Below, one piece after another: positions 17,701 to 40,010 of a stretch of DNA of 47,370 nucleotides. Every line of letters starts with the position of its first letter. Positions within the stretch are counted from its first letter, which is position 1. The stretch is from Sphingorhabdus sp. (GTDB lineage: Bacteria > Pseudomonadota > Alphaproteobacteria > Sphingomonadales > Sphingomonadaceae), in NCBI GenBank assembly GCA_023262005.1, contig JALREL010000158.1, forward strand, positions 1 to 47,370. Reading direction: 5' to 3'. Both the position numbers and the translations under genes were made by a program. The notes under the pieces are model-generated. The model ran no database searches, was not told where the DNA came from, and saw only the letters and a list, made by a program, of their open reading frames with translations.

Positions 17701-17706
17701 GAATCC

Positions 17707-17934: not shown

Positions 17935-17935
17935 A

Positions 17936-22080: not shown

Positions 22081-22538
22081 TGGCCGCCCCTCCCGCTCTG
22101 AGCCGCACTGCGGATTGCCTTGCGGATGCGGTTGTAAGTGCCGCAGCGGCAGATATTGGTGACACCCTGTGCAATCTCCTCATCGCTTGGGGAGGGATTG
22201 TTTCTGAGGAAAGCGGCAGCGGCCATGATCATGCCAGGCTGACAATAGCCGCATTGCGGCACCCCCGCTTCGCGCCATGCCGCCTGTACGGGATGCTCGC
22301 TGCTCGCGCCGAGGCCCTCGATGGAAGTGATTTTCGATCCAGCGGCCTGGCCGACTGAATAGGCGCAGCTGCGCACCGCGGCCCCATCGACATGAACCGT
22401 GCAGGCGCCGCACAAGCCTGCGCCGCATCCGAATTTGGTCCCTTTGAGTCCCAAGCTGTCGCGCAAAACCCACAACAGCGGCACGGCCGGATCGACATCG
22501 AGCCGGTGCTTCGTTCCATTCACTTCAATTTCGAGCAT
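22077..22538 (-). CDS. [2Fe-2S] small subunit of the Mo hydroxylase (IorA type)
   Basis: A 153-residue protein, the usual size for IorA/NicA-type subunits. ATG 22538 is chosen because the family begins [15 protein letters not shown]; an upstream GTG/ATG reading would add an unrelated lead. It has the plant-type ferredoxin cluster motif [16 protein letters not shown] (about 41-56) with its later Cys, and the second cluster in [10 protein letters not shown] and [13 protein letters not shown] (about 102-145). It passes electrons from the molybdenum centre to an unknown acceptor. It is the first gene of the hydroxylase operon, and a palindromic operator-like site lies about 120 bases upstream. 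Confidence 0.9.
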
Positions 22539-22659: not shown

Positions 22660-22677
22660 ATTATACAAAAGAATAAT
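22660..22677 (-). promoter_or_regulatory. Operator-like palindrome ATTAT-N8-ATAAT, site 1
   Basis: Perfect five-base arms ATTAT and ATAAT are separated by eight bases (ACAAAAGA; TCTTTTGT on the other strand, sharing the TNGT end of sites 2-4). It lies upstream of the [2Fe-2S] subunit gene in a gap of 249 bases with no gene. It has the same architecture as the sites at 24189, 24397, 31154 and 34603. Confidence 0.6.
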
Positions 22678-22787
22678 TATTTGGGCGGCGGCTCGGTGGA
22701 AAGATGCCGCGCCCATAGCAACCGTGGCAGCAACCTTCGCCCGGCGCCACGAAAGTTAAGGTGGCTCAAACCTCGCTTCGGTATCGA

Positions 22788-23240
22788 CTAAAGCCCATGA
22801 TCGCGTTGTTCGATAGCCTTAGCAAAGGCCATCGAGTCGAAATGGGCGTGCTCGGTGCTCACCTTGCCATCGACGATGGTGTCGATCAAAACGACCCGCC
22901 ACGAGATTTCCGCACCGCCATTGGGCGCTCCCTCGCCGACATATCGAGCCTTGACTCGCAATTCGCCCACGACGGCCGTGCTGCTTGCAACAATATTCGT
23001 ATATTCGACCTGAACGGTTCCGGAAACGAACTGTGCATTGTAGCCTTCAAGATACTCACGAAACGCTTGCTTGCCCCGCACGGGCCGATCCGAGAATGGT
23101 ATGTCTATATAGACCATGTCCTCGTTGTAGAGCGTTAAGAGGTCATCCAGGTCGTTGCGCGCCCAAGCCTCGACCTGCCTCCTTAGCAACGCTTCGTTCT
23201 CGCGCGCGCGCTGCATTTCGACCGAAACCTCCATCATCAT
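22788..23240 (-). CDS. SnoaL-like (NTF2-fold) protein
   Basis: A 150-residue single-domain protein of the SnoaL/NTF2 superfamily: an N-terminal helix pair (LLRRQVEAWARNDLDDLLTLY), then the strand turn EDMVYIDIPFSDRPVRGKQA typical for SnoaL, then a sheet with WRVVLIDTIVDGKVSTEHAHF. Members act as isomerases, aldol cyclases or hydratases on small ring compounds, or have no known activity. It overlaps the NmrA gene by four bases (ATGA), so the two are co-translated. Its place between the hydroxylase and nic operons suggests a step in the same pathway; no substrate can be named. Confidence 0.82.
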   Translation of the reverse strand: MMMEVSVEMQRARENEALLRRQVEAWARNDLDDLLTLYNEDMVYIDIPFSDRPVRGKQAFREYLEGYNAQFVSGTVQVEYTNIVASSTAVVGELRVKARYVGEGAPNGGAEISWRVVLIDTIVDGKVSTEHAHFDSMAFAKAIEQRDHGL

Positions 23241-24103
23241 ACCCCCTCGGCTCGCCGGAGCAACGATGCGTGTTCCGCCAGAAATTCGTCGAGACTGCGC
23301 GGCGGGTGTCCGGTGATACTAGCGACAACGTCAGTTACCAAGGCCGTGTCACCCTTGATGATGCTGCGCCCTATGTCGGAGAAATACTCAATGAATTGCT
23401 CCGGCGCGCCTGCACTTCGCAGCCGTGCCTCTGCCGCCTCGGTCGTCTCTTCGACGGGCCGGACGACCGCCCCGGCGACTGCCGATACGCGATCCGCGAG
23501 CTGGTCGAGGGTGAGCGCATCAGGTCCGGTCAATGTGAGTGCTTGCCTGCCGCAAGCCTCGCCGAGCAGGAGCTCCACGGCAACATCGGCAATATCCCTG
23601 GCATCGATCCACGATGTCGCCGCGCCCGCGGTGGTCATCACAATGACGCCGTCTTCGCGGATCAGATTCCCGAAGAAGCGGTCGTCGATGAAGTCCTGCA
23701 TGAACCAGTTCGGCCGCAATATGGCGTAGTCGAGATTACTCTGCTCGATAACACGCTCTACCTGGCGCTCATGCGCGTCGTCAGCGCGCGTCTCGGCTGC
23801 GATTTCCGAGAGCAGCACGATCTTCGTCGCGCCAGACGTCTCCGCCAGACGCGTGAAGTCCTTGACAATATGCGTCACCTCGTCGGACTCGGGCTTTACA
23901 AGGTAGATAGCGTCGGTTCCATCCAGTGCGGGAGCCCAGGTCGAGCGGTTTTCCCAATCGAATGCCAGCGGGACGATGTTTTCTTGTGCGGCGAATGAAG
24001 GATTTCTCGATCCGGCCTTAACCGTGACGGCGCGTTTCGCGAGTCCGGTTACAACGTGCCTACCCGTTGTTCCGGTCGCCTTGGTAACCAAGATACCGCT
24101 CAT
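23237..24103 (-). CDS. NmrA-like NAD(P)-binding protein
   Basis: A 288-residue atypical short-chain dehydrogenase of the NmrA/azoreductase-like group. ATG 24103 is chosen, with GGAGGT seven bases before it; a longer open frame continues upstream without support. The nucleotide loop reads ILVTKATGTTGRHVV: the first glycine of the usual TGATGxxG is a lysine. ILRPNWFMQDF and SWIDARDIADVAVELL are typical NmrA features, and no Tyr-x-x-x-Lys catalytic pair is evident. It could be an NADPH-dependent reductase or a redox sensor. It leads a two-gene unit with the SnoaL-like gene, and has two operator-like palindromes upstream. Confidence 0.82.
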   Translation of the reverse strand: MSGILVTKATGTTGRHVVTGLAKRAVTVKAGSRNPSFAAQENIVPLAFDWENRSTWAPALDGTDAIYLVKPESDEVTHIVKDFTRLAETSGATKIVLLSEIAAETRADDAHERQVERVIEQSNLDYAILRPNWFMQDFIDDRFFGNLIREDGVIVMTTAGAATSWIDARDIADVAVELLLGEACGRQALTLTGPDALTLDQLADRVSAVAGAVVRPVEETTEAAEARLRSAGAPEQFIEYFSDIGRSIIKGDTALVTDVVASITGHPPRSLDEFLAEHASLLRRAEGV

Positions 24104-24188
24104 TCCCACCTCCTGTTCTCTGGCTGTTTTCGCGGCTCTTAATCCCGGCTTGCTGGATCGCCAATTTCGAACCAAGTCGAACTCATAA

Positions 24189-24206
24189 ATTATGTATTCG
24201 TATAAT
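24189..24206 (-). promoter_or_regulatory. Operator-like palindrome, site 2 (ATTAT-GTATTCGT-ATAAT)
   Basis: Perfect arms around an eight-base spacer, 86 bases upstream of the NmrA gene start. Over 20 bases it is identical to site 3 at 18 positions, including the spacer core TATTCGT, so the spacer as well as the AT-rich arms is conserved. Confidence 0.7.
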
Positions 24207-24396
24207 ATAGCCGCTGTCAACGATTCCTTGATGCCTCCACCGATCCGGGGCGATCGAGAGAGAGTTCCGCCAAAGGACATAGAGCTGCGCCAAAGAACCT
24301 CGCAAATCCGTCGCCGACCCGACGAATTTTTTGCGCCACCCGCTACAAATGCGGATGTTACCACTTCCCTGTGCGACACATCCGGCACGAACATAT

Positions 24397-24414
24397 ATTA
24401 GATATTCGTATAAT
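24397..24414 (-). promoter_or_regulatory. Operator-like palindrome, site 3 (ATTAG-ATATTCGT-ATAAT)
   Basis: A near copy of site 2, 208 bases away. An outer inverted repeat ATATTA/TAATAT (24395-24400 and 24411-24416) is perfect. It could act with site 2 through looping, or control a second promoter. No gene is recognised to its right before the tetR stop. Confidence 0.65.
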
Positions 24415-24416
24415 AT

Positions 24417-24965
24417 TTCTGGCCAGGCGTTGGATCGCCTCAAGACGGCCGCTGGTCCCGCCTCCTGCGACGAACCGCCGCGGAACTGAAAGCCCGTGGG
24501 CAATATGTTTCGGCGCTTAGCGTGCGCCGCGTGGGTCGCGCCCGATCACGGCGGCGTTTATGCATTCGGCGGGAACAATGGGGCCGATCTGGGCACAGAC
24601 CGCCGGCGCTGCAGACACGTCAAAAGCGGGAGGCAGAGGGGCCGATTTGCACTGATCAGCTCCCGGATCCCCGCTTGAGATAGCTGATCGTTTCAGACCC
24701 TGCGATCACATGAACGCGGGTTGCGTTAGGTCGGCACGATGCCGCGCAAGACATCAACATGACTTTTCCCGGCAGAACGCTCGATGAGGCGCTAGCCATC
24801 AGGCCACGGCTGCAAGCCCTTTCCGGAGACGCTCGCATTCATCAAGGCTTGTTGGACCAGACAGAATGGAGCGGGTCAATTCACCCGCAACGCCGTCCAC
24901 TGGATCGCATGGAAAGCCGACAGCTCCAAGGCGGACGCGCCTTCTCTTGTCGTCCCGGCAGCCAG
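24417..24965. other. Gap without recognisable gene
   Basis: About 550 bases between operator site 3 and the end of tetR. Reverse-strand frames near 24540-24660 (SAPLPPAFDVSAAPAVCAQI) and 24800-24960 look protein-like in composition but are short and carry stops, so they may be decayed coding sequence. I recognise no family. Confidence 0.4.
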
Positions 24966-25694
24966 TCAGGGCGGATCAGACTGCATCCCGGCCGCAAGGA
25001 ACGCCACCATATTATCGAGCATCTCGTCCTTCGACAGATTGTGGATCTTGCCTTCCGTCAAATCCTCGATACGCCCGAGATCATTCAACATGAACATATA
25101 TGTGCCGACCAGGAACGACATCCGCAATCCGATCGTCCGTCGGGGCAGATTAGGAAGGGCCTGAGCCAGAACATCGACATACCGCTTCACCGAGGCATCA
25201 TAGACTTCCTTGCGAAGCCGCAGGGCATGTTCTTCGGGTTCCGAATGAAGGCGGGACTGCAATTGCGCAAACGCGGCGCCGGCCTCTCCGCTGTATTTCA
25301 AATCCCACTGAGGCTGGAGATAGGCCCGAATGATGTCTTTTACCTGAAGCGGTTGACCAGATTCGAGCAACCGGTCCAGCAAAACGTGACGATGCCCGGA
25401 CAGCAGCCCGCCGCGCCGTTTATATACTTCGTCGAAAAGCTGCTCTTTCGTGTCAAAATAATAGCGAATCAGTCCCTGATTGACACCAGCGCGTTCCGCA
25501 ATGTCACGAACGCTAATCCCGGTATAGCCACGTTCGGCAAAGGCGATTTCCGCCGCGTCCAGAATCTTTTCCTTCAGTTTGCCGTTATTCTTGGGACGCC
25601 CAGGCTTCCTTGCCGGCTTCTTTTTCTCACCCTTCACTGCATTTTCTGCAGCGACCGTGGCCTTGGAATCCATCTCAACTCTTTCCGAATTCAA
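24966..25694 (-). CDS. TetR/AcrR-family regulator, likely repressor of the pyridine regulon
   Basis: A 242-residue protein. A basic, lysine-rich lead (KGEKKKPARKPGRPKNNGK, about 22-40) precedes a TetR DNA-binding domain: KILDAAEIAFAERGYTGISV, then VRDIAERAGVNQGLIRYYF with the recognition helix (about 63-81), then FDTKEQLFDEVY. The C-terminal ligand-binding half is helical and resembles the Rut/PsrA-like class in length. It is the last gene of the nic operon, 14 bases after the alpha/beta hydrolase stop, so it would be autoregulated. Palindromes upstream of all neighbouring transcription units are its most likely targets. The inducer is presumably a pathway intermediate. Confidence 0.9.
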   Translation of the reverse strand: MNSERVEMDSKATVAAENAVKGEKKKPARKPGRPKNNGKLKEKILDAAEIAFAERGYTGISVRDIAERAGVNQGLIRYYFDTKEQLFDEVYKRRGGLLSGHRHVLLDRLLESGQPLQVKDIIRAYLQPQWDLKYSGEAGAAFAQLQSRLHSEPEEHALRLRKEVYDASVKRYVDVLAQALPNLPRRTIGLRMSFLVGTYMFMLNDLGRIEDLTEGKIHNLSKDEMLDNMVAFLAAGMQSDPP

Positions 25695-25708
25695 GTTCGA
25701 GCCCTTTT

Positions 25709-26665
25709 CTAGCCATGAACGGCGTCACTGCCAGGAAGGGAAGCCTGTCCGCGGAGGTTCTGCTCGATCCATCCGACAAGCAAATCCGCGATCGCTGCGC
25801 TGTTTATCTCACTCATCAGCATGTGTCCATTGCCCCCGAGGCCATGCTCTTCAAGGCGGATATGCTCAAAAATATTTCCGCGATCGCGAATGAACGCGGC
25901 CGCGCGCGCATTGGCATCACGCATCCAACTTGCCTCGGCCGTGACGATTGCCACGGGTCGCTCGAACGGATCGGCCGTCCCGGCATAGGGCGCCGCACAA
26001 AGACCGTTCTCAAACGTTCCGAGTGGATGAACCATCCCAGGATAGCCCAGTGGCTCGATCGCGAGGATCCCCGCAACCTTGTCGCCGCCCTTGGCAGCTA
26101 GGGCCCAACCGCACGGACCACCGGCCGAATGACTGACGATGATCGTAGGGCCGGTCAATTCGAACAGTTGGTCGGCGATTGCCTCGACATGATGCTGGCT
26201 CGCCGCAAGCGTAGTCGCCATCGGACCTTGGCTCGCCATAAACCGGTCGCCAGCCTGGGGATCCTTGGGCCAGCGATCATGCTTTGCCGCCTCGGGCCAG
26301 AGATCATGCCGTGCCGGTTCAACAAAACGAGGATAAAGGAACCCATAGTCCGGAAGCGGCAACGCCGGGCCAAGTATCCGTTCGTTCCAGGCGCACCGCC
26401 CGTGTCCAGGGCGATCAAGGATAAAAACCGGATAGCCCGCGCTCAGAAAGCTATGCGCCCAGCCAGGCCGACCATCGGGTGTCCGCAGGAATTCGGACCC
26501 TTGCCCGCCCCCTCCGTGAACGAAGAGCACGGACACCGGCCGCGACTGCTCGGGTATGAACCACTCGACATAGGCACCGATCCCCGGCCAGATTTTGCCC
26601 TCAGCGTGAACGGGTTCACCGGTGAGGAACCGGCCGCCGAAGTCCTTGAGTCGATACGGCCCCAC
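25709..26665 (-). CDS. alpha/beta hydrolase of unknown substrate in the nic operon
   Basis: A 318-residue alpha/beta-hydrolase-fold protein without signal peptide. VLFVHGGGGQGSEFL gives the oxyanion-hole strand, FILDRPGHGR the next loop, and IIVSHSAGGPCGWALA the nucleophile elbow with Ser; EEHGLGGNGHML near the C-terminus supplies the His. The start is a GTG at 26665, eight bases from the stop of the monooxygenase gene, so translation is probably coupled. It is distinct from NicD, which lies in the same operon. Esterase or C-C bond hydrolase on a pathway intermediate are both possible. Confidence 0.8.
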   Translation of the reverse strand: MGPYRLKDFGGRFLTGEPVHAEGKIWPGIGAYVEWFIPEQSRPVSVLFVHGGGGQGSEFLRTPDGRPGWAHSFLSAGYPVFILDRPGHGRCAWNERILGPALPLPDYGFLYPRFVEPARHDLWPEAAKHDRWPKDPQAGDRFMASQGPMATTLAASQHHVEAIADQLFELTGPTIIVSHSAGGPCGWALAAKGGDKVAGILAIEPLGYPGMVHPLGTFENGLCAAPYAGTADPFERPVAIVTAEASWMRDANARAAAFIRDRGNIFEHIRLEEHGLGGNGHMLMSEINSAAIADLLVGWIEQNLRGQASLPGSDAVHG

Positions 26666-26672
26666 GATGACC

Positions 26673-27836
26673 TCAGAAATGAGTGATCAATTGGTCGGTG
26701 AAACTCAGTTCCCTTCGGATCAGTTCCTGATCCCCCGCGACGGTGCGGAGGAACTGAATTCGCTCCTCCTTCTCCTGGCCTTCCTTGAGATAATAGAGGT
26801 TGCGCAGGTTGAGCGAAGCGCGCGGTGACGTGATTTCGGTAAAAATGCGCCGCCGGTCTTGTTCGTAGAATTCCAGAATGTCGTGATCGGCGCCATCATG
26901 TATCACCCGGTTCAGAGCTTCGATCAAAGCGAACGCATCGAACATTCCGCCCGTGAGGCCGAGGCCGCCGGTCGGATTGGTCACATGTGCGGCATCGCCT
27001 ACGAGGATGACGCGGCCTACGCGCATCTTGTCCGCCACGCGCTGGTGCATTCGGTAGGGCGAGGCGGCCAGAACTTCGTACGGCAGATCGGGCAGGTGGT
27101 CGGCGAACATGGCATCGATGCGTTCGGGCAACCCCTCGAGGGGTAATTCCGGATCTTCGACGAAGGTAACGCGCCAAGCGTCCGACTGATCGATCTTGCA
27201 GATGACCGCGCCATGCTTTTGGTCGATCTGCATGACTGTCGGCGAATATCCCAACGATGACAGATCGATCTTTGTATTGGTCGCGATGTAGCGGTTGGGC
27301 CAGGTCACGCCGAAGAATTGCAGCCCGAGAACATCTCTGCGCACCGTGCTGTTCGCGCCGTCGGCGCCAATAAGGAAATCACCCTCCAAGCGTTCCGGCC
27401 CGCCCGGTCCGTCGAGCTCGGCGACCACGCCACCCGCATGCTGGCTGCAACCTTTCAAGCGCGCCTCGTAGCGGATTTCGATATTAGGAAGCATCGCGAC
27501 ATGGCGGGCCAGAACCCGGGAGAGCAAGCCTTGATGCAGATGCAGGGCCTGGCCGTCCTCATAGGCTGGCGAACCCGCCCACTCGATCATTTCGCCCGTG
27601 CTGTGGATGTGCCAGCCGAAGGTCTGCCGAAGGAAGCCCTCGTTGACACAGTCTTGCAAAAGCCCGAGCTTCTCGAGGTACGGCAAAACAGGATAGTGGT
27701 AGACAAGCGCTCGCGGACTATCGTTGAGCTGCGCCTCGGATTCGAGGATTGTAACGCGCGTCCCCGCTTTCGCGAGGCCGATCGCCGTGAGCAGGCCGGT
27801 CGGTCCCGCGCCGGCGATGATTACATGTTGGGTCAT
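26673..27836 (-). CDS. FAD-dependent aromatic-ring monooxygenase (PHBH family)
   Basis: A 387-residue class A flavin monooxygenase. It has the FAD loop HVIIAGAGPTGLLTAIGLAK (about 4-23), the DG motif IGADGANSTVRRDVLG (about 157-172), and the GD motif VILVGDAAHVTNPTGGLGLTGG (about 279-300). Enzymes of this family hydroxylate phenolic or hydroxypyridine rings with NAD(P)H and O2. Placed next to nicX, it most likely makes 2,5-dihydroxypyridine, either from a 6-hydroxypyridine with a 3-acyl chain (as 6-hydroxy-3-succinoylpyridine hydroxylase does) or by decarboxylating hydroxylation. It does not resemble NicC (6-hydroxynicotinate 3-monooxygenase) as I remember it. Overlaps nicF by four bases. Confidence 0.85.
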   Translation of the reverse strand: MTQHVIIAGAGPTGLLTAIGLAKAGTRVTILESEAQLNDSPRALVYHYPVLPYLEKLGLLQDCVNEGFLRQTFGWHIHSTGEMIEWAGSPAYEDGQALHLHQGLLSRVLARHVAMLPNIEIRYEARLKGCSQHAGGVVAELDGPGGPERLEGDFLIGADGANSTVRRDVLGLQFFGVTWPNRYIATNTKIDLSSLGYSPTVMQIDQKHGAVICKIDQSDAWRVTFVEDPELPLEGLPERIDAMFADHLPDLPYEVLAASPYRMHQRVADKMRVGRVILVGDAAHVTNPTGGLGLTGGMFDAFALIEALNRVIHDGADHDILEFYEQDRRRIFTEITSPRASLNLRNLYYLKEGQEKEERIQFLRTVAGDQELIRRELSFTDQLITHF

Positions 27837-28501
27837 TGATCTACCTCTCCTTCATTAACCGAGCCCCGCCCCTCCAAAGCCCCGAGCTGGCCGAACCAGT
27901 TCAGGATGTCGTCGGAGCTGGTAACGTCGCCATATTTTTGGGCGATGTCATAAAGATTGGCTTCGTGCGGCGCGGACGCCCGGTCCGCGCAGCAATCGCG
28001 CGGCACCAGCACGATAAAACCGGATTGCACGGCATCGACGACGGTCGCGCGCACGCATCCCGATGTGGTCGCTCCCGTAACTACAACCGTATCGACCCCG
28101 GCAGCGGTAAGCAGACCGGCAAGATTGGTGCCATGAAAGGCCGACGCACCATGCTTGACGATGATGGGATCGCCTGCGGCGATGCCCGTCGCGCTGTCGA
28201 TCTCGACCAACCTCGTGCCCGCCAACAGCGCCTTCATGCCGGTCGCCTTGCGAAGCCAGGGCAATGCCTCCGCCTCCCACGGCTGATAGGCGATCGTGGT
28301 GTAAATAACGGGAAAGCCGCGTTCGCGCGCACCATCAGTGAGCCGACGCGTCGCAGCGATCTCAGCCTTCATATCCGTGGCTGTGGGATAGCTGGTGTCG
28401 GTGAAGCCGTAGGAGAAATCGACCACGATAACCGCCGGACGGGTTCCTCTGGGAGCGCTGCGGCCGAATCCGGCCCTTTCATAAACCTCAGCCTGCGACA
28501 T
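27833..28501 (-). CDS. nicF: maleamate amidohydrolase (NicF), isochorismatase fold
   Basis: A 222-residue cysteine hydrolase. ATG 28501 is chosen because MSQAEVYERAGFG begins the family; a longer frame into nicX is open. The catalytic triad is visible: Asp in VIVVDFSYGF (about 28-32), Lys in IIVKHGASAFHGT (about 115), Cys in TGATTSGCVRATVVDA (about 148). NicF converts maleamate to maleate and ammonia in nicotinate degradation. It overlaps nicX by 14 bases and the monooxygenase gene by 4, in one operon. Assignment rests on the fold plus the neighbours NicX, NicD and NicE. Confidence 0.88.
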   Translation of the reverse strand: MSQAEVYERAGFGRSAPRGTRPAVIVVDFSYGFTDTSYPTATDMKAEIAATRRLTDGARERGFPVIYTTIAYQPWEAEALPWLRKATGMKALLAGTRLVEIDSATGIAAGDPIIVKHGASAFHGTNLAGLLTAAGVDTVVVTGATTSGCVRATVVDAVQSGFIVLVPRDCCADRASAPHEANLYDIAQKYGDVTSSDDILNWFGQLGALEGRGSVNEGEVDQ

Positions 28502-29564
28502 CGAACACCTTGCTTTCCGCCTCCCTCGAACGGCCGTTTCGGTCGAACTGGAGTTCCTTGACCACGATTTCACCATCGATCAGCACCGGTTTGCCATCGA
28601 GGAAGAGTGAGCAGCCGCGCATGGGAATATCGAGGTGGCAGGCCGTATCGTTCATTCCGCCAAGCTCGTTGTTGGGGCCGGTCGAAAACAGCACATTGCC
28701 GAGATAGCTGCGCGGCTCCATCCCCATGCCCCCGGGAAATTCGCCCGGCGTCATTCGATGCCATTTGGCATCCGGATTCATCCCCCAGCCAATATGGCTC
28801 ATGGCAAATCCGCGCTCGTCCTCAAAGTCGGCCATATAGGATTTGACGAGGTCGGCTTCCAAGCCGCCGCGGATGTCCGTGATCCATCCCCGCTTGATCG
28901 TATAGGTAATTGGCTCGCGAACGTAGATATTCTGGGGGAGGAGCACGTCGCCCGGCCCCACGACGATCTGACCATCGACACCGTCATCGTCCCCGCCGGT
29001 AAATACGAAGCCTGAAGGCCAATGATCCCAACGCCCGGGCTGGTCCGTGCAGGCATATTCGGTGATGGTGGGGTATGTGCCGAGCTTGTAGATCACATCG
29101 GTTCCATGAGGTGAGGTGATGTGCATCGTCTTGGCCTGCGCCAGCAATTCCCCCGCCCGCTCGACTTTCTCGCGCAGTTCAGGGTTCGGCAACATGCGCG
29201 CGAGCAGTTCGGGCGGCTCGACCACGGTCAGCACGCGCGTGCCGGCCGCCTGGATCGCCATCTGCTCCGGCGAGAACAGCAGAAAAATGCAGTCGATGAG
29301 CATGTCGGCGTTCTTGAGGGCCTCAACCGCCTCCGGCATGGCGGCGAGCGACGTCTGGCCGACCGCCCACCCCCCCATGGGAGACGCCGCGGGAAGGCGC
29401 ATGTGATAAATATTCGCGCCCAACGTCCTGCCGGCAGCGAGGAAGGCATCTGCATAGTCGAGGCGTTCGTCGCCCTGGGTGAGGACAATCAGGCGCTCGT
29501 TCGCACGCACTCCGGACATCTTCAGTTGATGCAGGCAAATTTCGATAAAGCTTGCGCGATCCAT
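28488..29564 (-). CDS. nicX: 2,5-dihydroxypyridine 5,6-dioxygenase (NicX)
   Basis: A 358-residue protein of the aminopeptidase-T-like (M29) fold with the sequence features of NicX. EPPELLARMLPNPE, YPTITEYACTDQPGRWDHWPSGF and LFSTGPNNELGG all match what I recall of NicX. The metal-binding triad reported for the family (two His, one Asp) can be placed in MSHIGWGMNP and CHLDIPMRGC. NicX opens the ring of 2,5-dihydroxypyridine with O2 and Fe(II), giving N-formylmaleamate. ATG 29564 is used; residues before it are unlike the family. The gene lies 19 bases after nicD, in the same operon. Confidence 0.92.
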   Translation of the reverse strand: MDRASFIEICLHQLKMSGVRANERLIVLTQGDERLDYADAFLAAGRTLGANIYHMRLPAASPMGGWAVGQTSLAAMPEAVEALKNADMLIDCIFLLFSPEQMAIQAAGTRVLTVVEPPELLARMLPNPELREKVERAGELLAQAKTMHITSPHGTDVIYKLGTYPTITEYACTDQPGRWDHWPSGFVFTGGDDDGVDGQIVVGPGDVLLPQNIYVREPITYTIKRGWITDIRGGLEADLVKSYMADFEDERGFAMSHIGWGMNPDAKWHRMTPGEFPGGMGMEPRSYLGNVLFSTGPNNELGGMNDTACHLDIPMRGCSLFLDGKPVLIDGEIVVKELQFDRNGRSREAESKVFDVAG

Positions 29565-29583
29565 TGCGGACGCTCCAATTCTG

Positions 29584-30369
29584 TCAAATTCTGAAATCGC
29601 TGACGGCGCGCAAAAAACCATCTAGGTCGTCCCACGGGATCATGTGCCCCGCGCCCTCGACCGTCGTGATTTCGATGTTCGGCGCAAGGCACTTGAACTC
29701 TGTGATGTCAGCCTCTTCGATCACCGGAGAGGCGCCGGCCACTACCAGGCGCATCGGCAAATCGAGGTGCGGCAAGTCCTGATGAATGTCGTCGGCGTGA
29801 AAACCCTTATAGGCGGTATCGATCGCATCAAGATCACAGCTATGGAGCCACTCAGCCCGCAGCGCGCGCTGCTCTTCGGTCCAGGTGGGGCAGAAGGTCT
29901 TCATGTCCTCCGCCGAACAGCCCCGCTGTGCCAACAGGATGGAGTCTTCGTACCAGGGCCAGGCCGAGGGATAGGGACGCCGGCCGGGTCCGCTTACCGG
30001 CGGATCGACGAGGATCAGCCCGCCAAAGACCCCCGGCGCCTTGCGAGCAGCGCGGATCGCCGTGCGTGCGCCCATCGAATGGCCAAGAACGATAGGCGCG
30101 TCCATTTCGAGCGCCTCAACAAGAGCGACAGCGTCGTCCGCCATCGCATCGAGCGAATAGTCGAGGTCTCCCCCTTGGCTGAGCCCGCGCCCCCGCACAT
30201 CCAGAACATGAACTTCGAAATGCTCCGAAAGGGGTTTTGCAACGAAGTCCCAGGTGACCGCCGGCGAGGTAATCCCCGGAATCAACAGCATTTGCGGGCC
30301 GCCCTCACCGTGCTGAATCAGATGGTGCCGGATGCCGTTCGCATGGACGTTATAGCCGCGCATCGCCAT
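29584..30369 (-). CDS. nicD: N-formylmaleamate deformylase (NicD)
   Basis: A 261-residue alpha/beta hydrolase matching NicD features: NVHANGIRHHLIQHG, LLIPGITSPAVTWDFVA, VLDVRGRGLS, the nucleophile elbow VLGHSMGARTAIRAA (Ser about 98), LVDPPVSGPGRRPYP, FCPTWTEEQRALRAEWLH, and GAGHMIPWDDLDGF with the catalytic His. NicD releases formate from N-formylmaleamate to give maleamate. It lies four bases after nicE. This is one of the most secure assignments in the window because long stretches recall characterised NicD. Confidence 0.92.
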   Translation of the reverse strand: MAMRGYNVHANGIRHHLIQHGEGGPQMLLIPGITSPAVTWDFVAKPLSEHFEVHVLDVRGRGLSQGGDLDYSLDAMADDAVALVEALEMDAPIVLGHSMGARTAIRAARKAPGVFGGLILVDPPVSGPGRRPYPSAWPWYEDSILLAQRGCSAEDMKTFCPTWTEEQRALRAEWLHSCDLDAIDTAYKGFHADDIHQDLPHLDLPMRLVVAGASPVIEEADITEFKCLAPNIEITTVEGAGHMIPWDDLDGFLRAVSDFRI

Positions 30370-30373
30370 CCCC

Positions 30374-31126
30374 TTAGTAGGCGCCAGAAAGCAGGGTGCC
30401 GCCGCCGGGCACCCGCGTGTCGAGATCGAGCGACTTGAGCATCGCCCAGGTCGTGGCGATCGCCGCGGTCAAAACGGGCTTGCCGACCTGCGCCTCGACA
30501 ATCGAGACAGCGGGCAGAGACGGCATCTGCACACATGCCGACAGCACGACCGCGTCGACGTCGCCGATCTGTTCCATGCTGGCGACAATGCCGGGAAGAC
30601 GGGCCGGGTCGTGCCCGGCAACCGCGAGATTGTCGGAAATCTCAAGAGCGCGCCATTCCGTCACTTCAATACCCTCACTGCGGATATAGTTCACGACCAT
30701 CTCCGTCAGCGGCTTCATATAGGGAGCAACGATAGCGACCTTCTTCGCGCCAATCGCCTTGATGCCATCGACAAGCGCTCCGGCGGAGGAGACAACGGGC
30801 GCTGAATTGCCGTTGTCGACGGTGACCTGATGCAGCCTCGCCTGCGACTCGCGATGATAGCCATGCCCCATCGACATGATCGCCACGAGGCAGGCATAGC
30901 CCATCACATCGACCGCAGCGTCGGACAGTTCAAGCGCGCAGCGATCACTCGCCGCATCCATCGCGGCCAATTCTTCCTTCGTGACATGCTTCATCCGCAT
31001 GCGCGAGGAATGGAAGGTGAAGCGCTCAGGCGAAATCGTCTCACGCGCACGCAAGAGTGCCGGAATCTCGGTTTCCATCGTCACGTTGGAACTCGGCACG
31101 ATCTGGCCGATGCGATAGGTTCTCAT
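30374..31126 (-). CDS. nicE: maleate cis-trans isomerase (NicE)
   Basis: A 250-residue Asp/Glu-racemase-fold protein. It begins RIGQIVPSSNVTMETEIPAL, characteristic of maleate isomerase. Both active cysteines are present: MGYACLVAIMS (about Cys79) and VVLSACVQMPSLPAV (about Cys197). It converts maleate to fumarate, which enters the citric acid cycle. It is the first gene of a seven-gene operon running leftward. AAGGAG lies seven bases before ATG 31126, and an operator-like palindrome at 31154-31171 overlaps where its promoter must be. Confidence 0.92.
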   Translation of the reverse strand: MRTYRIGQIVPSSNVTMETEIPALLRARETISPERFTFHSSRMRMKHVTKEELAAMDAASDRCALELSDAAVDVMGYACLVAIMSMGHGYHRESQARLHQVTVDNGNSAPVVSSAGALVDGIKAIGAKKVAIVAPYMKPLTEMVVNYIRSEGIEVTEWRALEISDNLAVAGHDPARLPGIVASMEQIGDVDAVVLSACVQMPSLPAVSIVEAQVGKPVLTAAIATTWAMLKSLDLDTRVPGGGTLLSGAY

Positions 31127-31153
31127 GAGGATCTCCTTTACTCATATATATTA

Positions 31154-31171
31154 ATTAGTCACTCGTATAAA
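31154..31171 (-). promoter_or_regulatory. Operator-like palindrome, site 4 (ATTAG-TCACTCGT-ATAAA)
   Basis: It lies 28 bases upstream of the nicE start. Each arm differs from ATTAT/ATAAT at one position. The spacer keeps the ACTCGT core that matches ATTCGT in sites 2 and 3. Its position fits repression of the nic operon. Confidence 0.6.
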
Positions 31172-32123
31172 TACAAGCGAAATTCGCCGGCCGCATGCAT
31201 TGGATACACGCCGAGCGAAGCGTTGCAGTAACAAAATCGCATAGCAACCCACCACTCTCAATATAATGTAACAGTTTCATAGCTATAAGGGGTATGCCAT
31301 AAAAACCTCCGTACAAAGCTGTTGGCTTGAAGCGGTGAGGGCTTCCCACGCTATGGCAATCTCGCCTAGGCCAGACGATTATGAAAAAGTTCTGCAATAC
31401 GATCAAATTCTGCGAATGCGGTATTTTCTGAAACGTCCACAATCAATTTTGTTGGGCTGTACTTGCCGCGCCGAAAGCAAAAGAACTGAGGCCAATCTGC
31501 GCAGCCATTTTTGCAGATCCGCCAACCATTGCTTGAAAATCGCCCGTTAACTCATGCAGGTCGAGCACATGGGCCGATTAGTCGACTTGAAAGCAGGCGA
31601 TCAAAATAAAACCTATCACAACATCAATCCCCAATGTTTTTTGCCGGCGTTTGGTGAAGGAACTTTCCAACCTGGTTAGTCGCTTACTACCATTGAATAC
31701 CTCAAGGGCTGCCACCCGACGCCGCCGATGCTTCCCCCCGACGCGAAAGCTCTCGCAGTCGTAGCTCCTTGGCACTGGGTAACGCCTGCGACGTTTATCC
31801 CCTCAAACTTTTACGCGCATTCAACTACTTGAAGCAGCAATTGAGCGCTGATCAAACATTGGCTTTCCAATGCACTATTGTGGATTTGTGAGCGCTTGAG
31901 GAAATCATCTCTCGCAATGGGACACCAACAAACCACTTTGGTAGCACAGTGAAATGGCGGATACTTGCCTCTTTCCCGAATGTGGCACGCGCAAAGCATG
32001 ATGATCAAACATTCAGTTTTATCGCTGCCGGTTGCGATAGGCGAGAGGCCGAACACTATACGAGTTTTCAAAAACGCGGCGGCTAACGTCAAACCAGACA
32101 CGGAAGGATTATCATTCAATTTG
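31172..32123. other. AT-richer gap with no recognisable gene
   Basis: Nearly 1 kb between the nicE promoter and the hairpin after the TonB receptor. Frames at 31335-31550 (plus), 31578-31775 (minus) and 31811-32119 (minus) are short, without ribosome sites, and match no family I know. It may contain decayed coding sequence. Confidence 0.4.
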
Positions 32124-32149
32124 CCCCCGCTGCAGCGTCGCAGCGGGGG
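32124..32149 (-). terminator. Strong hairpin after the TonB receptor gene
   Basis: CCCCCGCTGC and GCAGCGGGGG form a perfect ten-base stem with a six-base loop, about 36 bases past the receptor stop. On the reverse strand it is followed by CAAATTG rather than a clear T-run, so termination may be only partly intrinsic. Confidence 0.5.
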
Positions 32150-32184
32150 AAGTTTACCAAGAGATTTGTTTGTGGCTTCCCGGG

Positions 32185-34470
32185 TTAGAACCGGAAAGTA
32201 GCATCTACGCCATATGTGCGCGGCGTGCCCCGAATGAGGTAATCAAGCCCCGCAAACCTCAACGCTAAACCGTAGTTGAAATACTTCTGATTGAAGAGGT
32301 TTTTCACGCCTGCACCAACAGAAAAACGATCTCCGTTGTACGCAATCCGAGCGTTGGAAACCCAATAGCCCTTCTGGGAAACCGCTGTCGTTTGCGCAAT
32401 ATCAAAATAGATGCGCGAGGTATAAGACGCATCAATGTTGAGATCGACCGTCCCATCTTTAATTTCCGCGAGCACGAAGCCGCCCGTGAGGTTTAAGCTA
32501 AATTTCGCAGAATTTGATATTTGGTTCCCGGCGACAATGGTGCCGCTCGAACCTGATACGACAGCATCGTTGTCATATTCGGGATCCAGTGCACCAATGC
32601 CCACACCAAGCGTTACCCGATCTATTGGCCGCGCAGTTATCTCGGCTTCGATACCGCGGACGCGGGCACCACTGATCGAACGGAGAGGAAACAACCCCCC
32701 CGCTTCAGTCACGACGACCTGCTGGTTACGGTAGTCGGTCTGGAACAGTGAACCGTTGATCGTCAGCGTGCGATCTAGCAGGGTAGATTTGAAGCCAGCT
32801 TCATAGGTCCGCGCCGTCTCAGGGGGCGCGAAGGTGATTTCGGACGGATCACTGAACGCTTGCGCATTCACTGCACCGCTGCGATAGCCTTCGCGCATGG
32901 AGGCATAGAGCAAGACGTCGTCGGAAGGCTTCCAATTTACACCTACTTCGAAGCTGGTATTGCTAAAGGTGCTGCGGTCGGAATAGCCACTTATGGTTGG
33001 GAAGGCCAAGGGATCTATATTATCCCCTAGGAATGCGTTGAAGTTTGCAACAGCGACTTTATCCCGACTGAATCGCACACCGCCATATACGGAAACTGTC
33101 TCAGTTATTTCTAAATCGCCACGAAGATAAGCCGCATAGCTTTTGCGCTCTTGATCGAAACTATTTGACTGGACAAAACCCGTTCCGGTTGGCGTAAATC
33201 CAAAGCTGCATGCGGGACCGCAACCCGGATCGGTAAGGAGCGAATAATCGAACCCGGCATTGACCGAGTCTTTCGAATAGAAAAGACCGGCCTGAGCATT
33301 GAATGGTCCATCAAATGACGTCGCCAAACGCAACTCCTGAACGAACTGCTTGATATCTCGGCCAAAGGTGACGATCGGGTCATCAGCCTCGATAACAAGG
33401 CCGTCGTCATCTCCAATATCGACCCACTTGCCCCAGTCATAGGTCGTCACAGAGGTCAGCCTGATAACATCGGATGCATCCCAATTCATGATCAGGTTTA
33501 GCCCATCGCTGCGGATAGTCCGCTCTGGCGTGTTGGTCGTTGCAGTTTGAAAAAAGCCCAAGCCATTTCGGTTCGATCCGGGAAGACCGGACAAATTATT
33601 GCCGGGAAACAAAATTGCCGGATCATTGAAATCAATGTTCCCGGCGAACGGCGCATAGTTACGGCCACCGCTCCTAACATGGTTGTAACGTAGCGTAGCC
33701 TCAAAGCTGTTCGAGGGTTCGAACTGCAGTGCCCCTCTGAAAGCAAAGACGTCCGTCTGGTCCAGATCGCCAAGGCCCGGCGTCACGTTTTCAAGCACGC
33801 CAGTGTCATGGACGTAGAGCGCAGCAACGCGCACCGCCAGCACTCCATCTATCAAGGGAGCTTGCACGGCTCCCTGTAACCGAACACGATTAAAGTTACC
33901 GTAAGAGCCGGTTACATATCCTTCGGTCGAAAAACTAGGCTTTTTGGTTACGATGTTTACGGCACCACCTGTCGCATTCTTCCCGTAAAGCGTTCCCTGT
34001 GGGCCGCGAAGAACCTCGACGCGCTCGACGTCAAACAAAGGCATCGTTTCAAATGTTGAAAGACCGCGGATGCCTTCGTCGATATAGACGGCAATAGGCT
34101 TGCTCTGGTTCGCAGAATAGTCGGTTGAAGAAATACCCCGAATAACAAAGTTGGGCGGACCGCCTTCACCGAAGGGAGATGCGACTTGTGTATTTGGCGT
34201 AACCTTCATCAAATCGCCAATCTGCACCGCTTGGCGGGCCGCAATCGCCACTTCGCCAAAGGCGGAGACGGCAACCGGAACGTCCTGGAGACGTTGCTCG
34301 CGCCGTTGCGCGGTAACAATAATGTCGCCGGAGTCGCCTGCAACCTGCTGCTCTTCCTCGGGCGTTGCGGCATCCTGAGCATAAGCCGCCGAAGAATAAA
34401 CCAGCGGCAACGAAGCGAGCGAAACTGCCAACGCAGTATGTGCTGAACCGCGTATCAATCGAGCAATCAT
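32185..34470 (-). CDS. TonB-dependent outer-membrane receptor of the pyridine regulon
   Basis: A 761-residue receptor. The signal peptide ends SSAAYAQ at about 31. The TonB-box-like DIIVTAQRREQRLQDVPVAV (about 48-68) is characteristic of the sphingomonad FyuA/catabolic-receptor group. The plug ends with VERVEVLRGPQGTLYGKNAT, and the barrel ends in GVDATFRF with terminal Phe. GAGGGAGA precedes ATG 34470. An operator-like palindrome lies about 130 bases upstream, tying it to the nic and hydroxylase genes, so it probably imports the heteroaromatic substrate. Base composition is visibly more AT-rich than the chromosomal receptor at 259-3063. Confidence 0.92.
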   Translation of the reverse strand: MIARLIRGSAHTALAVSLASLPLVYSSAAYAQDAATPEEEQQVAGDSGDIIVTAQRREQRLQDVPVAVSAFGEVAIAARQAVQIGDLMKVTPNTQVASPFGEGGPPNFVIRGISSTDYSANQSKPIAVYIDEGIRGLSTFETMPLFDVERVEVLRGPQGTLYGKNATGGAVNIVTKKPSFSTEGYVTGSYGNFNRVRLQGAVQAPLIDGVLAVRVAALYVHDTGVLENVTPGLGDLDQTDVFAFRGALQFEPSNSFEATLRYNHVRSGGRNYAPFAGNIDFNDPAILFPGNNLSGLPGSNRNGLGFFQTATTNTPERTIRSDGLNLIMNWDASDVIRLTSVTTYDWGKWVDIGDDDGLVIEADDPIVTFGRDIKQFVQELRLATSFDGPFNAQAGLFYSKDSVNAGFDYSLLTDPGCGPACSFGFTPTGTGFVQSNSFDQERKSYAAYLRGDLEITETVSVYGGVRFSRDKVAVANFNAFLGDNIDPLAFPTISGYSDRSTFSNTSFEVGVNWKPSDDVLLYASMREGYRSGAVNAQAFSDPSEITFAPPETARTYEAGFKSTLLDRTLTINGSLFQTDYRNQQVVVTEAGGLFPLRSISGARVRGIEAEITARPIDRVTLGVGIGALDPEYDNDAVVSGSSGTIVAGNQISNSAKFSLNLTGGFVLAEIKDGTVDLNIDASYTSRIYFDIAQTTAVSQKGYWVSNARIAYNGDRFSVGAGVKNLFNQKYFNYGLALRFAGLDYLIRGTPRTYGVDATFRF

Positions 34471-34602
34471 TTCAATTCTCCCTCTTTATGTATGTCATTC
34501 CCACCGATCAGGACTCCATGGCATTCGAATTCCGCCATCCTCCTCCCGCTCGCGAACAAGCACTCCCGCCCAGAGAAGTACGGTTAAACCACCTTTGCTA
34601 TA

Positions 34603-34620
34603 ATTATCCTACTGCATAAT
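34603..34620 (-). promoter_or_regulatory. Operator-like palindrome, site 5 (ATTAT-CCTACTGC-ATAAT)
   Basis: Perfect arms with the same eight-base spacing as sites 1 and 2, 133 bases upstream of the TonB receptor start, in the divergent region shared with the APC permease. Confidence 0.65.
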
Positions 34621-34779
34621 TTATGTCATTGTCAACGTCAATGCAAGCCTATCTTAATTGCCCTCGCGGTCCACTCTGCGCCAAAAAAGCACCTAGAATA
34701 TAGCATATTATCATTAGTTTATGAAATTTTTTATGGATCGAATCGGAGGAGATATGACCACCTTGCCATCCTGACATAA

Positions 34780-34797
34780 AATCACCACTCGCATAAA
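34780..34797 (+). promoter_or_regulatory. Degenerate operator-like element, site 6
   Basis: AATCA-CCACTCGC-ATAAA keeps the spacer core ACTCG and most of the right arm seen at site 4, but the left arm is poor. It lies about 310 bases before the APC permease in the same divergent region as site 5. The rest of 34471-35107 is AT-rich and holds no gene that I can recognise. Confidence 0.35.
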
Positions 34798-35107
34798 TTA
34801 GTTGTGGAGAAAAGCAATTTTGCTACTAGTGTGAGTCGTTCGCGACCAGCGCGATTTTCAGGCGACGCAGCGAATGCCAGTTTGCCTGCAGACGATAGCG
34901 CAATTGTCTTTGGGGCAGTGCGAACGAGATGGAGGGGTGGATGCAGAAAACGGGAATTGTTGAGCTTCGTTCACGGCGCTATCGATCAGGCATCGGTGTT
35001 GCGATCAAGCAGGGGTTGGATGCTCTTTCGTTGAAGCCCTCGAGATCAGAACTGTTGCCGTCAAATTCGGCATCCAATGAAATTATTGGTCGTTCATGGA
35101 GGAATAT

Positions 35108-36574
35108 ATGACCCAAACAAAGGTCGCCGTCGCATCTGGGTCTGTTCAGCCCGCCGTTGACGGTCAATCCGTTGCGCTTCCGCGCTCTCTGAGCACATTC
35201 CGGCTCGCTGTCTTTGTTATCGCGGCCGTCGCGCCACTCGCCTGCGTCATTGGGGTGCTGCCCGTGGCACTTGTGTTCGGTAGTGGCACGGCCCTCCCGC
35301 TGGCATTCGTCGTTGCGACGGTCGTCACGGCATTGTTCGCAGTGGGCTATTCCGCTTTCAGTCGCGAAGTGGTGACTGGCGGCGCATTTTACACCTATAT
35401 CGCGCACGGCCTCGGTCCGGTTGTAGGCTTGGGAGCAGCCGGCGTCGCGGTCGCATCATACACAATGTTTGTGCCAGGGGGATTCAGTTATCTCGGTTAT
35501 ATGATGCAAACCACATTCAGCGACTTGCTCGGATTCGATCTCCACTGGGTCGTTTATTCTCTGGTAGCCTGGGTAATTATCGGTTTCTTGGGCCTTCGCC
35601 AGATCGACTTCAGTGCCAGAGTGGTGCTGATCGTCATCCTTATCGAATTCATGCTACTGCTATTTTTCGATGCAATTCTTGTTGGACAGTTGGGCAGCGC
35701 GGCTTTCCCGGCTCAATCGCTCGATTTCAGCGGTCTGTTAGGTGGTGCGCCCGGTGTTGCGATCCTGCTCGCGTTTACCTGCTATTTCGGTATCGAGTCC
35801 GCTGCACTGTTTTCCGAGGAAGCAAAGTCCCCCCAAAAATCGGTGGCCCGGGCAACTTACATCGCAATCTTCATAATCGGTATCTTCTACTTCATCACTT
35901 CGTGGATTACTATAGGTGCAATTGGACCCGACAACATTAAGGGAATTCCCGAAGCAGACGTCGGCCTCGTCTATTTCAAGCTGAGTGATAAGTATGTAAA
36001 TGACGCATTTACAACTATCATCCAGGCGGCTCTCGTTACCAGCATGTTTGCGACCGTTCTTTCGATGCATAATGTTGCTGCGCGCTATCTGTTCGTGCTT
36101 GGCCGTCAGGGCTTTCTGCCCCGCGTGCTCGGTCGCGCGCATCCGGTACACGGCGCGCCAACAGCAGCAAGCGCCTCGATTTCGGTCGTCGCGCTTATTG
36201 TCTTTACAAGCGCTGCATTTCTGGGGCTGCACCCAATGCTTGGACTGGGCTTGATCGTTCTTGGTTTTGCGGCGGTAGGTGTAATGTTCATGCAGGCTCT
36301 GACCAGTGTTGCGGTTGTGTCCTATTTCCGAAAGCATCCCGAACGTCACCTCTGGCAGCACGTGATCGCGCCGATATTAGCGTTTCTCGGGTTGTTGGTG
36401 GCGCTGTACTTCGCGGTGACAAACTTCGAATATCTGAGCGGCAGCCAGAATCCGGTGGTCAATCGCATTCCGATTGGCATACCGTTGGCAATGGCGGCCG
36501 GCATAGGGTTCGCGCTTTGGCTCCGCCGTTATCGTCCAGCGAAGTTCGCTGAGATGCAGCTGGACGACCTGTGA
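35108..36574 (+). CDS. APC-family amino acid/amine permease
   Basis: A 488-residue inner-membrane transporter. ATG 35108 is chosen since GGAGGA lies just before it; an ATG four codons earlier contains that ribosome site. About 12 membrane spans are evident. The first helix region VAPLACVIGVLPVALVFGSG and FSREVVTGGAFYTYIAHGLG match the APC pattern of a broken first helix and conserved helix 2-3 loop. ACYFGIES-type helix 6 (CYFGIESAALFSEEAKSPQK) is typical of amine/amino acid permeases. It is followed on the same strand by the glutaryl-CoA dehydrogenase and CoA-transferase genes, so it may import their precursor or the primary heterocycle. Confidence 0.88.
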   Translation: MTQTKVAVASGSVQPAVDGQSVALPRSLSTFRLAVFVIAAVAPLACVIGVLPVALVFGSGTALPLAFVVATVVTALFAVGYSAFSREVVTGGAFYTYIAHGLGPVVGLGAAGVAVASYTMFVPGGFSYLGYMMQTTFSDLLGFDLHWVVYSLVAWVIIGFLGLRQIDFSARVVLIVILIEFMLLLFFDAILVGQLGSAAFPAQSLDFSGLLGGAPGVAILLAFTCYFGIESAALFSEEAKSPQKSVARATYIAIFIIGIFYFITSWITIGAIGPDNIKGIPEADVGLVYFKLSDKYVNDAFTTIIQAALVTSMFATVLSMHNVAARYLFVLGRQGFLPRVLGRAHPVHGAPTAASASISVVALIVFTSAAFLGLHPMLGLGLIVLGFAAVGVMFMQALTSVAVVSYFRKHPERHLWQHVIAPILAFLGLLVALYFAVTNFEYLSGSQNPVVNRIPIGIPLAMAAGIGFALWLRRYRPAKFAEMQLDDL

Positions 36575-39500: not shown

Positions 39501-40010
39501 TCAGTTGCCGAAGCCACCTGCTTGCCACATCTCCCGCACTACTCGCCAACCATGAACTGTACGCTTCAGCACGAAAAGCTGGCGAATCGTCTCTTGCTTC
39601 GTGGTCGCGGGCGGGTTAGGCTGACAAGTCAATACCGCAAACACCGAAGCCATGTCCCGGTCCGACGAGACAACAGTATCCTGCACGGCAAAGGCGCAGC
39701 CCTTATTGCCATTGGGGCCAAGATAAGCAAACCAGTCGTCAAGAGCTTTTACGGACGCCTCGATCCCACGCCTCGCCGCAACATCCCCCTCGCCGGTGAT
39801 AATCACATCGTGGCTATAAAATCGCTCTGCGAGTTCGGTCGACGTCAAACCATCACGATTGGCCTGATCTTGGTCGGCGTAGAAGGCATGGAGCTCCTGG
39901 ACGACATCGGCTGGCGCCGCTTGCACAGGCGTTTCGTGCGCCGCCGCTGATAGCGAAGGGGCACACATCAATGCGAGCAGAGCCAAGCGCGTCTTAAGGT
40001 TACAGGTCAT
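39501..40010 (-). CDS. secreted SnoaL/NTF2-like protein (DUF4440 type)
   Basis: A 169-residue protein with a signal peptide (LKTRLALLALMCAPSLSAAA, cleavage near residue 24). The mature part has an NTF2-like fold pattern: VVQELHAFYADQDQANRDGL, then LAERFYSHDVIITGEGDVAARRG and the C-terminal strand pair RQLFVLKRTVHGWRVVREMW. AGGAG lies five bases before the ATG. Related proteins are found in the periplasm with unknown roles or as polyketide-cyclase-like enzymes. It stands alone between convergent and divergent neighbours. An inverted repeat lies about 50 bases upstream. Confidence 0.8.
   Translation of the reverse strand: MTCNLKTRLALLALMCAPSLSAAAHETPVQAAPADVVQELHAFYADQDQANRDGLTSTELAERFYSHDVIITGEGDVAARRGIEASVKALDDWFAYLGPNGNKGCAFAVQDTVVSSDRDMASVFAVLTCQPNPPATTKQETIRQLFVLKRTVHGWRVVREMWQAGGFGN

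Follow-up and report, generated by a model that had tools for sequence, protein, structure and literature searches.

A conserved palindrome in ndp-type nicotine clusters as the predicted operator of their TetR-family regulator

Contig JALREL010000158.1 of the Sphingorhabdus sp. assembly GCA_023262005.1, analysed from position 1 to 47,370 of the forward strand (47,370 nucleotides in all, here called the window), carries a block of pyridine-catabolic genes in which the AT-rich palindrome ATTAT-N8-ATAAT recurs upstream of several transcription units. This palindrome is real and is conserved in related bacteria, and we put at roughly 0.87 the probability that it is the operator of the TetR-family regulator encoded in the same cluster, a protein that would be an ortholog of the TetR of the ndp nicotine clusters and a relative of NicR2 from Pseudomonas putida. 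The palindrome was first described in a sequence-only reading of the window, the interpretation of which is partly supported here. The observation of a shared palindrome is confirmed, and the proposal that one operator may serve several promoters of the block finds support in a position matrix and in conservation; the names and the novelty attached to it have fared less well.

The palindrome and its extent

Perfect copies, with no arm mismatches, lie at 22660, 24189 and 34603 of the window, a copy with one arm mismatch at 24397 and one with two at 31154, all as first described, together with a degenerate sixth site at 34780 that reads AATCACCACTCGCATAAA and is off at four arm positions. The perfect sites are also, as had been claimed, beyond chance: 300 dinucleotide shuffles of the window contained a mean of 0.0067 perfect palindromes, and five intergenic regions (3440 bp), shuffled 2000 times, a mean of 0.003; no shuffle of either kind contained three, and over the spacings of 0 to 24 examined, perfect arms occur at spacing 8 alone. 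Chance matching in AT-rich DNA can appeal to the relaxed pattern, which at up to two mismatches gives 11 matches in the window against 8.6 expected, with 24 of 100 shuffles reaching 11; since this is no excess, loose matches by themselves prove nothing. Against three perfect sites where 0.007 are expected, and against the recurrence of the site in other genera, chance is nevertheless an exceedingly improbable explanation. The Sphingorhabdus assembly itself (2.55 Mb, 234 contigs, 82% complete) holds four perfect sites, three of them within the window. A refined consensus pattern with three mismatches was tried as a genome test and dropped, being of no use.

Complete sites take the form ATTATTCA-NN-TGAATAAT, and the 8-bp spacer, as judged from the aligned sites, is part of the dyad, with C at position 7 and G at position 12. 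Among 31 selected sites, oriented in favour of C7, position 7 is C in 29 and position 12 is G in 23. Rhizobium acidisoli, Agrobacterium vitis and Pannonibacter have the full palindrome ATTATTCAAATGAATAAT, which is why the spacer is counted with the dyad. The arms were thus correctly defined at the outset, and the definition was incomplete in leaving C7 and G12 outside the palindrome; the spacer motif A-T/C-TCGT that had been assigned to the second, third, fourth and sixth sites holds except for the final C at 34780.

Conservation of the site across species

A symmetrised position matrix was built from seven window sites, and its matches in related clusters and other contigs are concentrated, as the sequence-only reading had expected, in these promoters and in orthologous clusters. 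In 15 of 15 loci that bear the TetR, the 300 bp preceding nicE/ndpH contain a matrix site (shuffle p ≤0.01), and the same is true of two more. With ndpH/nicE starts taken as aligned to the window's protein, a site scoring at least 11 stands 41-57 bp before the start in all 17 fetched loci that have nicE and a TetR ortholog (49-91% identity). These loci span the Sphingomonadales, Hyphomicrobiales and Rhodobacterales, and in five Sphingobium loci the best-scoring site is a second one at 207 bp.

Perfect sites are similarly placed. In seven genomes (~33 Mb), 12 of 19 lie in ndp-type clusters or at ndp promoters, the counts in cluster over total being 3/4 in the Sphingorhabdus assembly, 3/4 in Sphingopyxis sp. 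H053, 2/2 in Sphingomonas sp. 3P27F8, 3/4 in Novosphingobium, 0/4 in S. estronivorans, 0/0 in TCM1 and 1/1 in DJ77. At a score of at least 12, H053 has seven matches (two overlapping) in 40 kb at its cluster versus eight in 360 kb elsewhere on that contig, and 3P27F8 has four in 20 kb at its cluster and a single one, within the TonB-APC region, in the next 100 kb; the other contigs of the Sphingorhabdus genome give seven in 322 kb. The Sphingobium locus L166 carries sites at ndpAS and at the APC permease, two at ndpH, and others at three further genes. In Novosphingobium guangzhouense, perfect sites also accompany ndpAS and a further TonB receptor gene on another contig of the genome (L220:546, L220:3848). 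Five of the eight background matches of H053 cluster on its contig 3 at 43-70 kb (L178:3271, 5859 and 9612; L179:5927 and 10216) in a related ATTAAT/ATTCG form, and are perhaps the sites of another regulator.

As controls we used six loci where homologs of NdpH, F, E and G are present and the stretch gives no match to the TetR at 1e-8, the NdpE match of L227 being a fragment. None has a match of at least 12, whether L157 or the remaining five (best scores: L226 10.1, L227 9.3, L228 3.3, L229 6.4, L230 8.8). Three further loci with NdpH alone (L231-L233; 7.4, 4.3 and 7.2) were scanned and left out of the control count. An earlier control set of 14 Sphingomonadaceae nicE loci (best shuffle p 0.125) was rejected, as these are mostly not 2,5-dihydroxypyridine (2,5-DHP) clusters. 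Caballeronia sp. Lep1P3 (TetR ~40%) has an operator-like TTTATACGGCCATATAAT, scoring 16.8, between tetR and the monooxygenase gene (L224:2672); in look it is intermediate between the window site and the NicR2 repeat.

The TetR regulator and other candidate binders

The proposed binder is the product of 24966..25694 (minus strand), with TetR_N and TetR_C_30 domains, the last gene of the ndpH operon and placed 14 bp beyond its ndpH-F-E-G-D-hydrolase genes. It had been named the simplest binder, and it is supported here as the likeliest one. Its nearest solved relative is NicR (PDB 5FGL; aligned residues 42-239, E 1e-37), a distant homology (HMMER, 133 bits); 5FGL and 5FHP, listed as NicR, are presumably the P. 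putida NicR2. The turn and recognition helix (residues 65-80) is 69-100% identical in 14 orthologs.

Orthologs accompanied by these genes occur in H053 (91%), 3P27F8 (86%), Novosphingobium guangzhouense and several Sphingobium, and on plasmids of Sphingobium, Shinella, Pannonibacter, Paracoccus, Rhizobium, Agrobacterium, Pseudosulfitobacter and Sagittula, the plasmid set comprising the 11 TetR-bearing records of ~50% identity or more that were fetched, of 75 with any TetR match. Of 397 genomes of the family that were sampled, two carry the regulator at E 1e-30, the Sphingorhabdus genome included, versus 20 with a nicE homolog. In L033-L035, too, the gene belongs to the operon; in L037-L039, L165 and L166 the distance between the two is no more than ~6 kb. 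In six of the seven annotated rhizobial or rhodobacteral loci other than Shinella it stands between a MarR gene and nicE (L168, L170, L172, L173, L222 and L223; not L169), and L168-L171, four of the six loci L168-L173, have a further strong site upstream of tetR.

Some other regulator, of the MarR or AraC type or encoded at a distance in the genome, might bind the sites while the TetR merely travels with the genes. MarR or AraC genes are present in several related loci, the loci were mostly selected by TetR homology, a distant regulator would escape a comparison of sequences, and the one other perfect palindrome of the Sphingorhabdus assembly adjoins a different TetR-like gene (C198:14101). 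Yet neither a MarR nor an AraC gene is common to all annotated site-bearing loci: neither was found among the 37 window open reading frames (ORFs) scanned, and no MarR is annotated in L165-L167. Conversely, L226 and L227 have a MarR gene, and L230 a winged-helix regulator, with no TetR match and no match of at least 12, and a distant regulator would need to follow the cluster across three orders. We consider a binder other than the cluster's TetR unlikely.

The palindrome at C198:14101 (L004:1501) is a perfect, fully symmetric ATTATCCAATTGGATAAT between a phosphotransferase-like frame and the TetR-like gene, the neighbours having been read by eye and the TetR-like gene also by alignment. It is probably the operator of that adjoining TetR, and cross-talk with the window TetR is possible.

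Predicted operators and their promoters

Operator assignments were made by sequence, with transcription start sites unmapped. The predicted operator ATTATACAAAAGAATAAT at 22660..22677 lies ~120 bp upstream of the 2Fe-2S/Mo hydroxylase genes and has TATAAT within it on the minus strand, where no clear -35 element was seen; it is identical in 18 of 18 positions in H053, against 0.67 for its flanks. Upstream of the NmrA-SnoaL genes (minus strand), the predicted operator ATTATGTATTCGTATAAT at 24189..24206 starts 8 bp past a TTGACA (24215-24220) that is kept in three species, and a second, distal predicted operator of this promoter lies at 24397..24414, 208 bp upstream; 3P27F8 has a paired site as well (L214:10899 and 11102). 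In the ndpH promoter, the predicted operator at 31154..31171 fills the 17-bp spacer from TTGTAT (31171-31176) to TAATAT (31148-31153) on the minus strand. Between the TonB receptor (minus) and the APC permease (plus) lies the predicted operator at 34603..34620, 9 bp after the TTGACA of the receptor promoter (34630-34635; kept in three species), and on the permease side of the same intergenic region a weak second candidate at 34780..34797 (score 10.4), whose identity is 0.89 in H053 and 0.67 in 3P27F8 versus 0.57 and 0.45 for the flanks.

The original list of six sites is sound and incomplete, two having been missed. That at 40067..40084, a predicted operator upstream of a 169-aa gene (39501-40010, minus), overlaps the -10 region after a TTGACA (40104-40109) that stands 19 bp before it and is kept in two species; it scores 15.4, having itself been among the seven matrix-building sites, and the ortholog of the gene in Sphingobium L165/L166 has a strong site. 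The other, at 40546..40563, is predicted ~105 bp upstream of the major facilitator superfamily (MFS) gene at 40660 (plus) and scores 15.1 though left out of matrix building, with a stronger counterpart (17.6) in H053 (L175:8402). A candidate at 13945 was rejected, its score of 10.3 being background: 322 kb from other parts of the genome give 18 matches of at least 10. When the sites are aligned with H053 and 3P27F8, their identity exceeds that of the 30-bp flanks in 13 of 13 comparisons, barely so at 40067 (0.67 vs 0.65).

All six sites first listed are intergenic, as had been stated, provided that the start of the NmrA gene is set at ~24106 rather than 24394. The long start, which would place the 24189 site inside the gene, was rejected: in the long frame the NmrA domain is reached only at about residue 100, and the extra 96 residues have no match in the two nearest orthologous loci.

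Across species the ndpH operator begins two bases after TTG in 14 of 15 sequences (16 of 18 with an enlarged set) and is followed by a TAAT-like hexamer, which begins TAA in 10 of 15. The predicted operators thus mostly appear to cover the spacer or the -10 region, and at ndpH usually the -35/-10 spacer. Second sites ~150-300 bp away are found at some promoters, namely at 24397 of the window, in 3P27F8, and at ndpH and a tyramine-oxidase-like gene in Sphingobium. TATAAT or CATAAT is found within several sites, which also overlap possible -35/-10 elements, so that the palindrome might be taken for an AT-rich promoter core with -10 boxes on both strands and no operator at all. A -10 box, however, requires no second arm at a fixed spacing of 8, and it would account neither for a dyad that extends to the inner C7/G12, and in Rhizobium, Agrobacterium and Pannonibacter to a complete palindrome of 18 bp, nor for the second copies ~150-300 bp off; moreover the rest of the same genomes, where scanned, is without sites at cluster density. 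A promoter core of this kind is therefore very unlikely.

Several observations weigh against reading the palindrome as the operator of this TetR. TetR homology was the route to most of the loci, so that the presence of the TetR is by design; what the result shows is co-occurrence of the site with this TetR, and it does not make this TetR the sole protein able to bind. Nor are the 17 loci independent events, given shared ancestry and several near-identical Sphingobium copies. Genome-wide, the loose pattern gives 46 + 47 matches versus 52 + 35 for the reversed control, which is no excess. The cluster of S. estronivorans has no perfect site, L036 (a TetR copy without nicE, 4.3 kb) has no match of at least 11, and Azospirillum (TetR 39%) has no site, its best score being 1.5. 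Just one of the first 14 control loci (L157) has 2,5-DHP genes and the matched controls number only six, in three of which (L226, L227, L230) nicE is not the first gene, though the whole 8.7 kb was scanned. Within the window, the 34780 site taken singly scores at background level, and that at 40067 is degenerate in H053.

Proposed mechanism

We infer that a TetR dimer, or two, would bind the 18-bp dyad, ideally ATTATTCA-NN-TGAATAAT, within or over the -35/-10 elements and would thereby exclude RNA polymerase; repression by polymerase exclusion is the natural reading of the operator positions. The units so repressed would be the hydroxylase, NmrA-SnoaL, ndpHFEGD-hydrolase-tetR, the TonB receptor/APC permease, the 169-aa gene and the MFS gene. 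The TetR may be released from the operator by an intermediate of the pathway (2,5-dihydroxypyridine or 6-hydroxy-3-succinoylpyridine), and since tetR closes the ndpH operon, its own level would be set via the 31154 operator.

Gene content of the cluster

The ndpH-F-E-G-D-hydrolase operon (25709..31126, minus) comprises NdpH/NicE (30374-31126), NdpF (29584-30369), NdpE (28488-29564), NdpG (27833-28576), the NdpD/HspB monooxygenase (26673-27836) and an alpha/beta hydrolase (25709-26665), all on the minus strand. Its ndpH, F, E, G and D are 88, 78, 84, 80 and 74% identical to the genes annotated under these names in the Sphingobium xenophagum record, and the best solved match of the monooxygenase is HspB, 6-hydroxy-3-succinoylpyridine 3-monooxygenase (E 7e-144). 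Gene content marks the cluster as nicotine-type (ndp/HSP): its monooxygenase resembles HspB/NdpD, and the lower genes share 74-88% identity with ndp genes. The label 'nic operon' first given to it, which denotes nicotinate, is to be abandoned. On the same strand lie genes for an NdpA-like molybdenum hydroxylase (19816..22538; large and small subunits 46% and 57% to NdpAL/NdpAS), SnoaL-like and NmrA-like proteins (22788..24106), the TonB-dependent receptor (32185..34470), the 169-aa protein (39501..40010; 62% to its Sphingobium ndp-cluster ortholog, no Pfam or NCBIfam match) and an NdpC-like 6-hydroxypseudooxynicotine oxidase homolog (43666..45750; 47%), to which a rejected 693-aa frame (43969-46050, plus) is antisense. 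On the plus strand are the APC permease (35096..36574), which at 80% to the permease of the ndp cluster is probably NdpT, and the MFS transporter (40660..41859; 55% to its ndp-cluster homolog). No match to ndpB (6-hydroxynicotine oxidase) was found in the window, which is the whole contig; ndpB is present in the related 3P27F8 cluster (75%). Because ndpB has no match and the ndpA and ndpC homologs reach only 46-57% and 47%, the substrate is called nicotine-type and not proven nicotine.

The contig probably belongs to its bin, since its polyphosphate kinase is 86% identical to that of the nearest congener. The left edge of the catabolic block (17398-18499) holds a DUF6880 gene fragment and a resolvase gene, and TetR and nicE were not found in the 10 congeners listed; for these reasons the block looks acquired. 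A family III CoA-transferase gene (37825-38987) is split by a frameshift into two overlapping frames, and its homolog in H053 has an in-frame stop. Directly upstream of the H053 NmrA gene (L174, ~12050-12135), ten GCTATTCG units are repeated in tandem; neither the window nor 3P27F8 has this repeat.

Relation to known regulators

In P. putida KT2440 the pyridine-pathway genes of the nicotinate clusters are regulated by NicR (MarR family) and NicS (TetR family); the window differs in its HspB-type monooxygenase and in that no MarR domain turned up in the 37 ORFs scanned. Closer is NdpR of Sphingomonas melonis TY, reportedly a TetR protein with five sites in three ndp promoters that share a conserved, partly palindromic motif, and said to take 2,5-dihydroxypyridine as its ligand and not to regulate itself. 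The sites of L166 at ndpAS, at the APC permease and, twice, at ndpH agree with what is reported for NdpR. The two systems have a cluster of the same ndp genes in common and differ in that here tetR is within the ndpH operon and the TonB receptor, NmrA-SnoaL and MFS promoters carry sites. No S. melonis record is among the matches listed, and it is by elimination that the NdpR ortholog is taken to be the only TetR annotated in the Sphingobium ndp clusters (74% to that of the window); the window TetR is an ortholog of the TetR of the ndp nicotine clusters, and that TetR is almost certainly NdpR. Four papers (PMC10858194, PMC10813004, PMC11784139, PMC12710356) cite NdpR of strain TY (Wang et al. 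2023, AEM 89:e00324-23) under a title that calls it a dual-role regulator, a role that the paired sites ~150-300 bp apart could explain. According to two further accounts, S. chungbukense, S. xenophagum and strain KK22 carry homologs of the TY genes (PMC5343071), and the TY cluster has a TetR and an AraC-type gene, with a TonB receptor among the genes in a figure legend (PMC7688666).

NicR2 of P. putida S16 is described in PMC6550519 as a TetR-family protein whose control extends from hspB to ami and works by competition with RNA polymerase at AT-rich 20-bp inverted repeats (7-bp half-sites, CATATAA, with a 6-bp spacer), which lie over -35/-10 of two promoters. On that account the window shares with it the TetR family, the HspB-type gene context and an AT-rich inverted repeat over -35/-10, here by sequence only. 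Unlike NicR2, the window has an 18-bp ATTATnC...GnATAAT in about six intergenic regions, that of the TonB receptor included, which is one more count against the assignment; because its operator differs from the exact 20-bp CATATAA repeat, the window TetR is not filed as NicR2 itself. In Agrobacterium tumefaciens S33, the TetR AWN88_01365, located in a nicotine cluster beside ndhAB, is 36% identical to NicR2 and its transcript is raised by nicotine from 21 to 355, its regulatory role being given as a prediction only in the part of PMC5500553 available. The Shinella HZN7 locus L167 shares with S33, as far as that text describes it, the arrangement of a TetR beside ndhAB, and the L167 TetR is a 66% ortholog.

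With regulators of the NicR2 (PMC6550519) and NdpR kind already known, the regulon is not the apparently undescribed one that had been announced and is instead a well-supported addition to the known nicotine TetR repressors. In the literature covered, mostly other than subscription papers, we found no common operator across nicotine and nicotinate clusters, nor a TonB receptor as a regulon member.

Significance

The site provides an exact predicted operator, compared between species at the sequence level, for the TetR family found alongside 2,5-dihydroxypyridine pathways, and adds the TonB receptor, NmrA-SnoaL, the 169-aa gene and the MFS gene as new candidate regulon members. Nicotine and nicotinate clusters become searchable by sequence for this control, and the sites are ready for gel shifts and pyridine biosensors. 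It is an even bet that one TetR and its operator travelled with the 2,5-dihydroxypyridine-to-fumarate genes through both nicotine and nicotinate pathways of three or more orders, the operator being kept in the spacer of the ndpH/nicE promoter, and that in sphingomonads a TonB receptor and transporters were also taken over, so that the same intermediate-sensing repressor switches the uptake of a pyridine compound across the outer membrane. On this reading, paired sites ~150-300 bp apart would give looping or dual-role behaviour.

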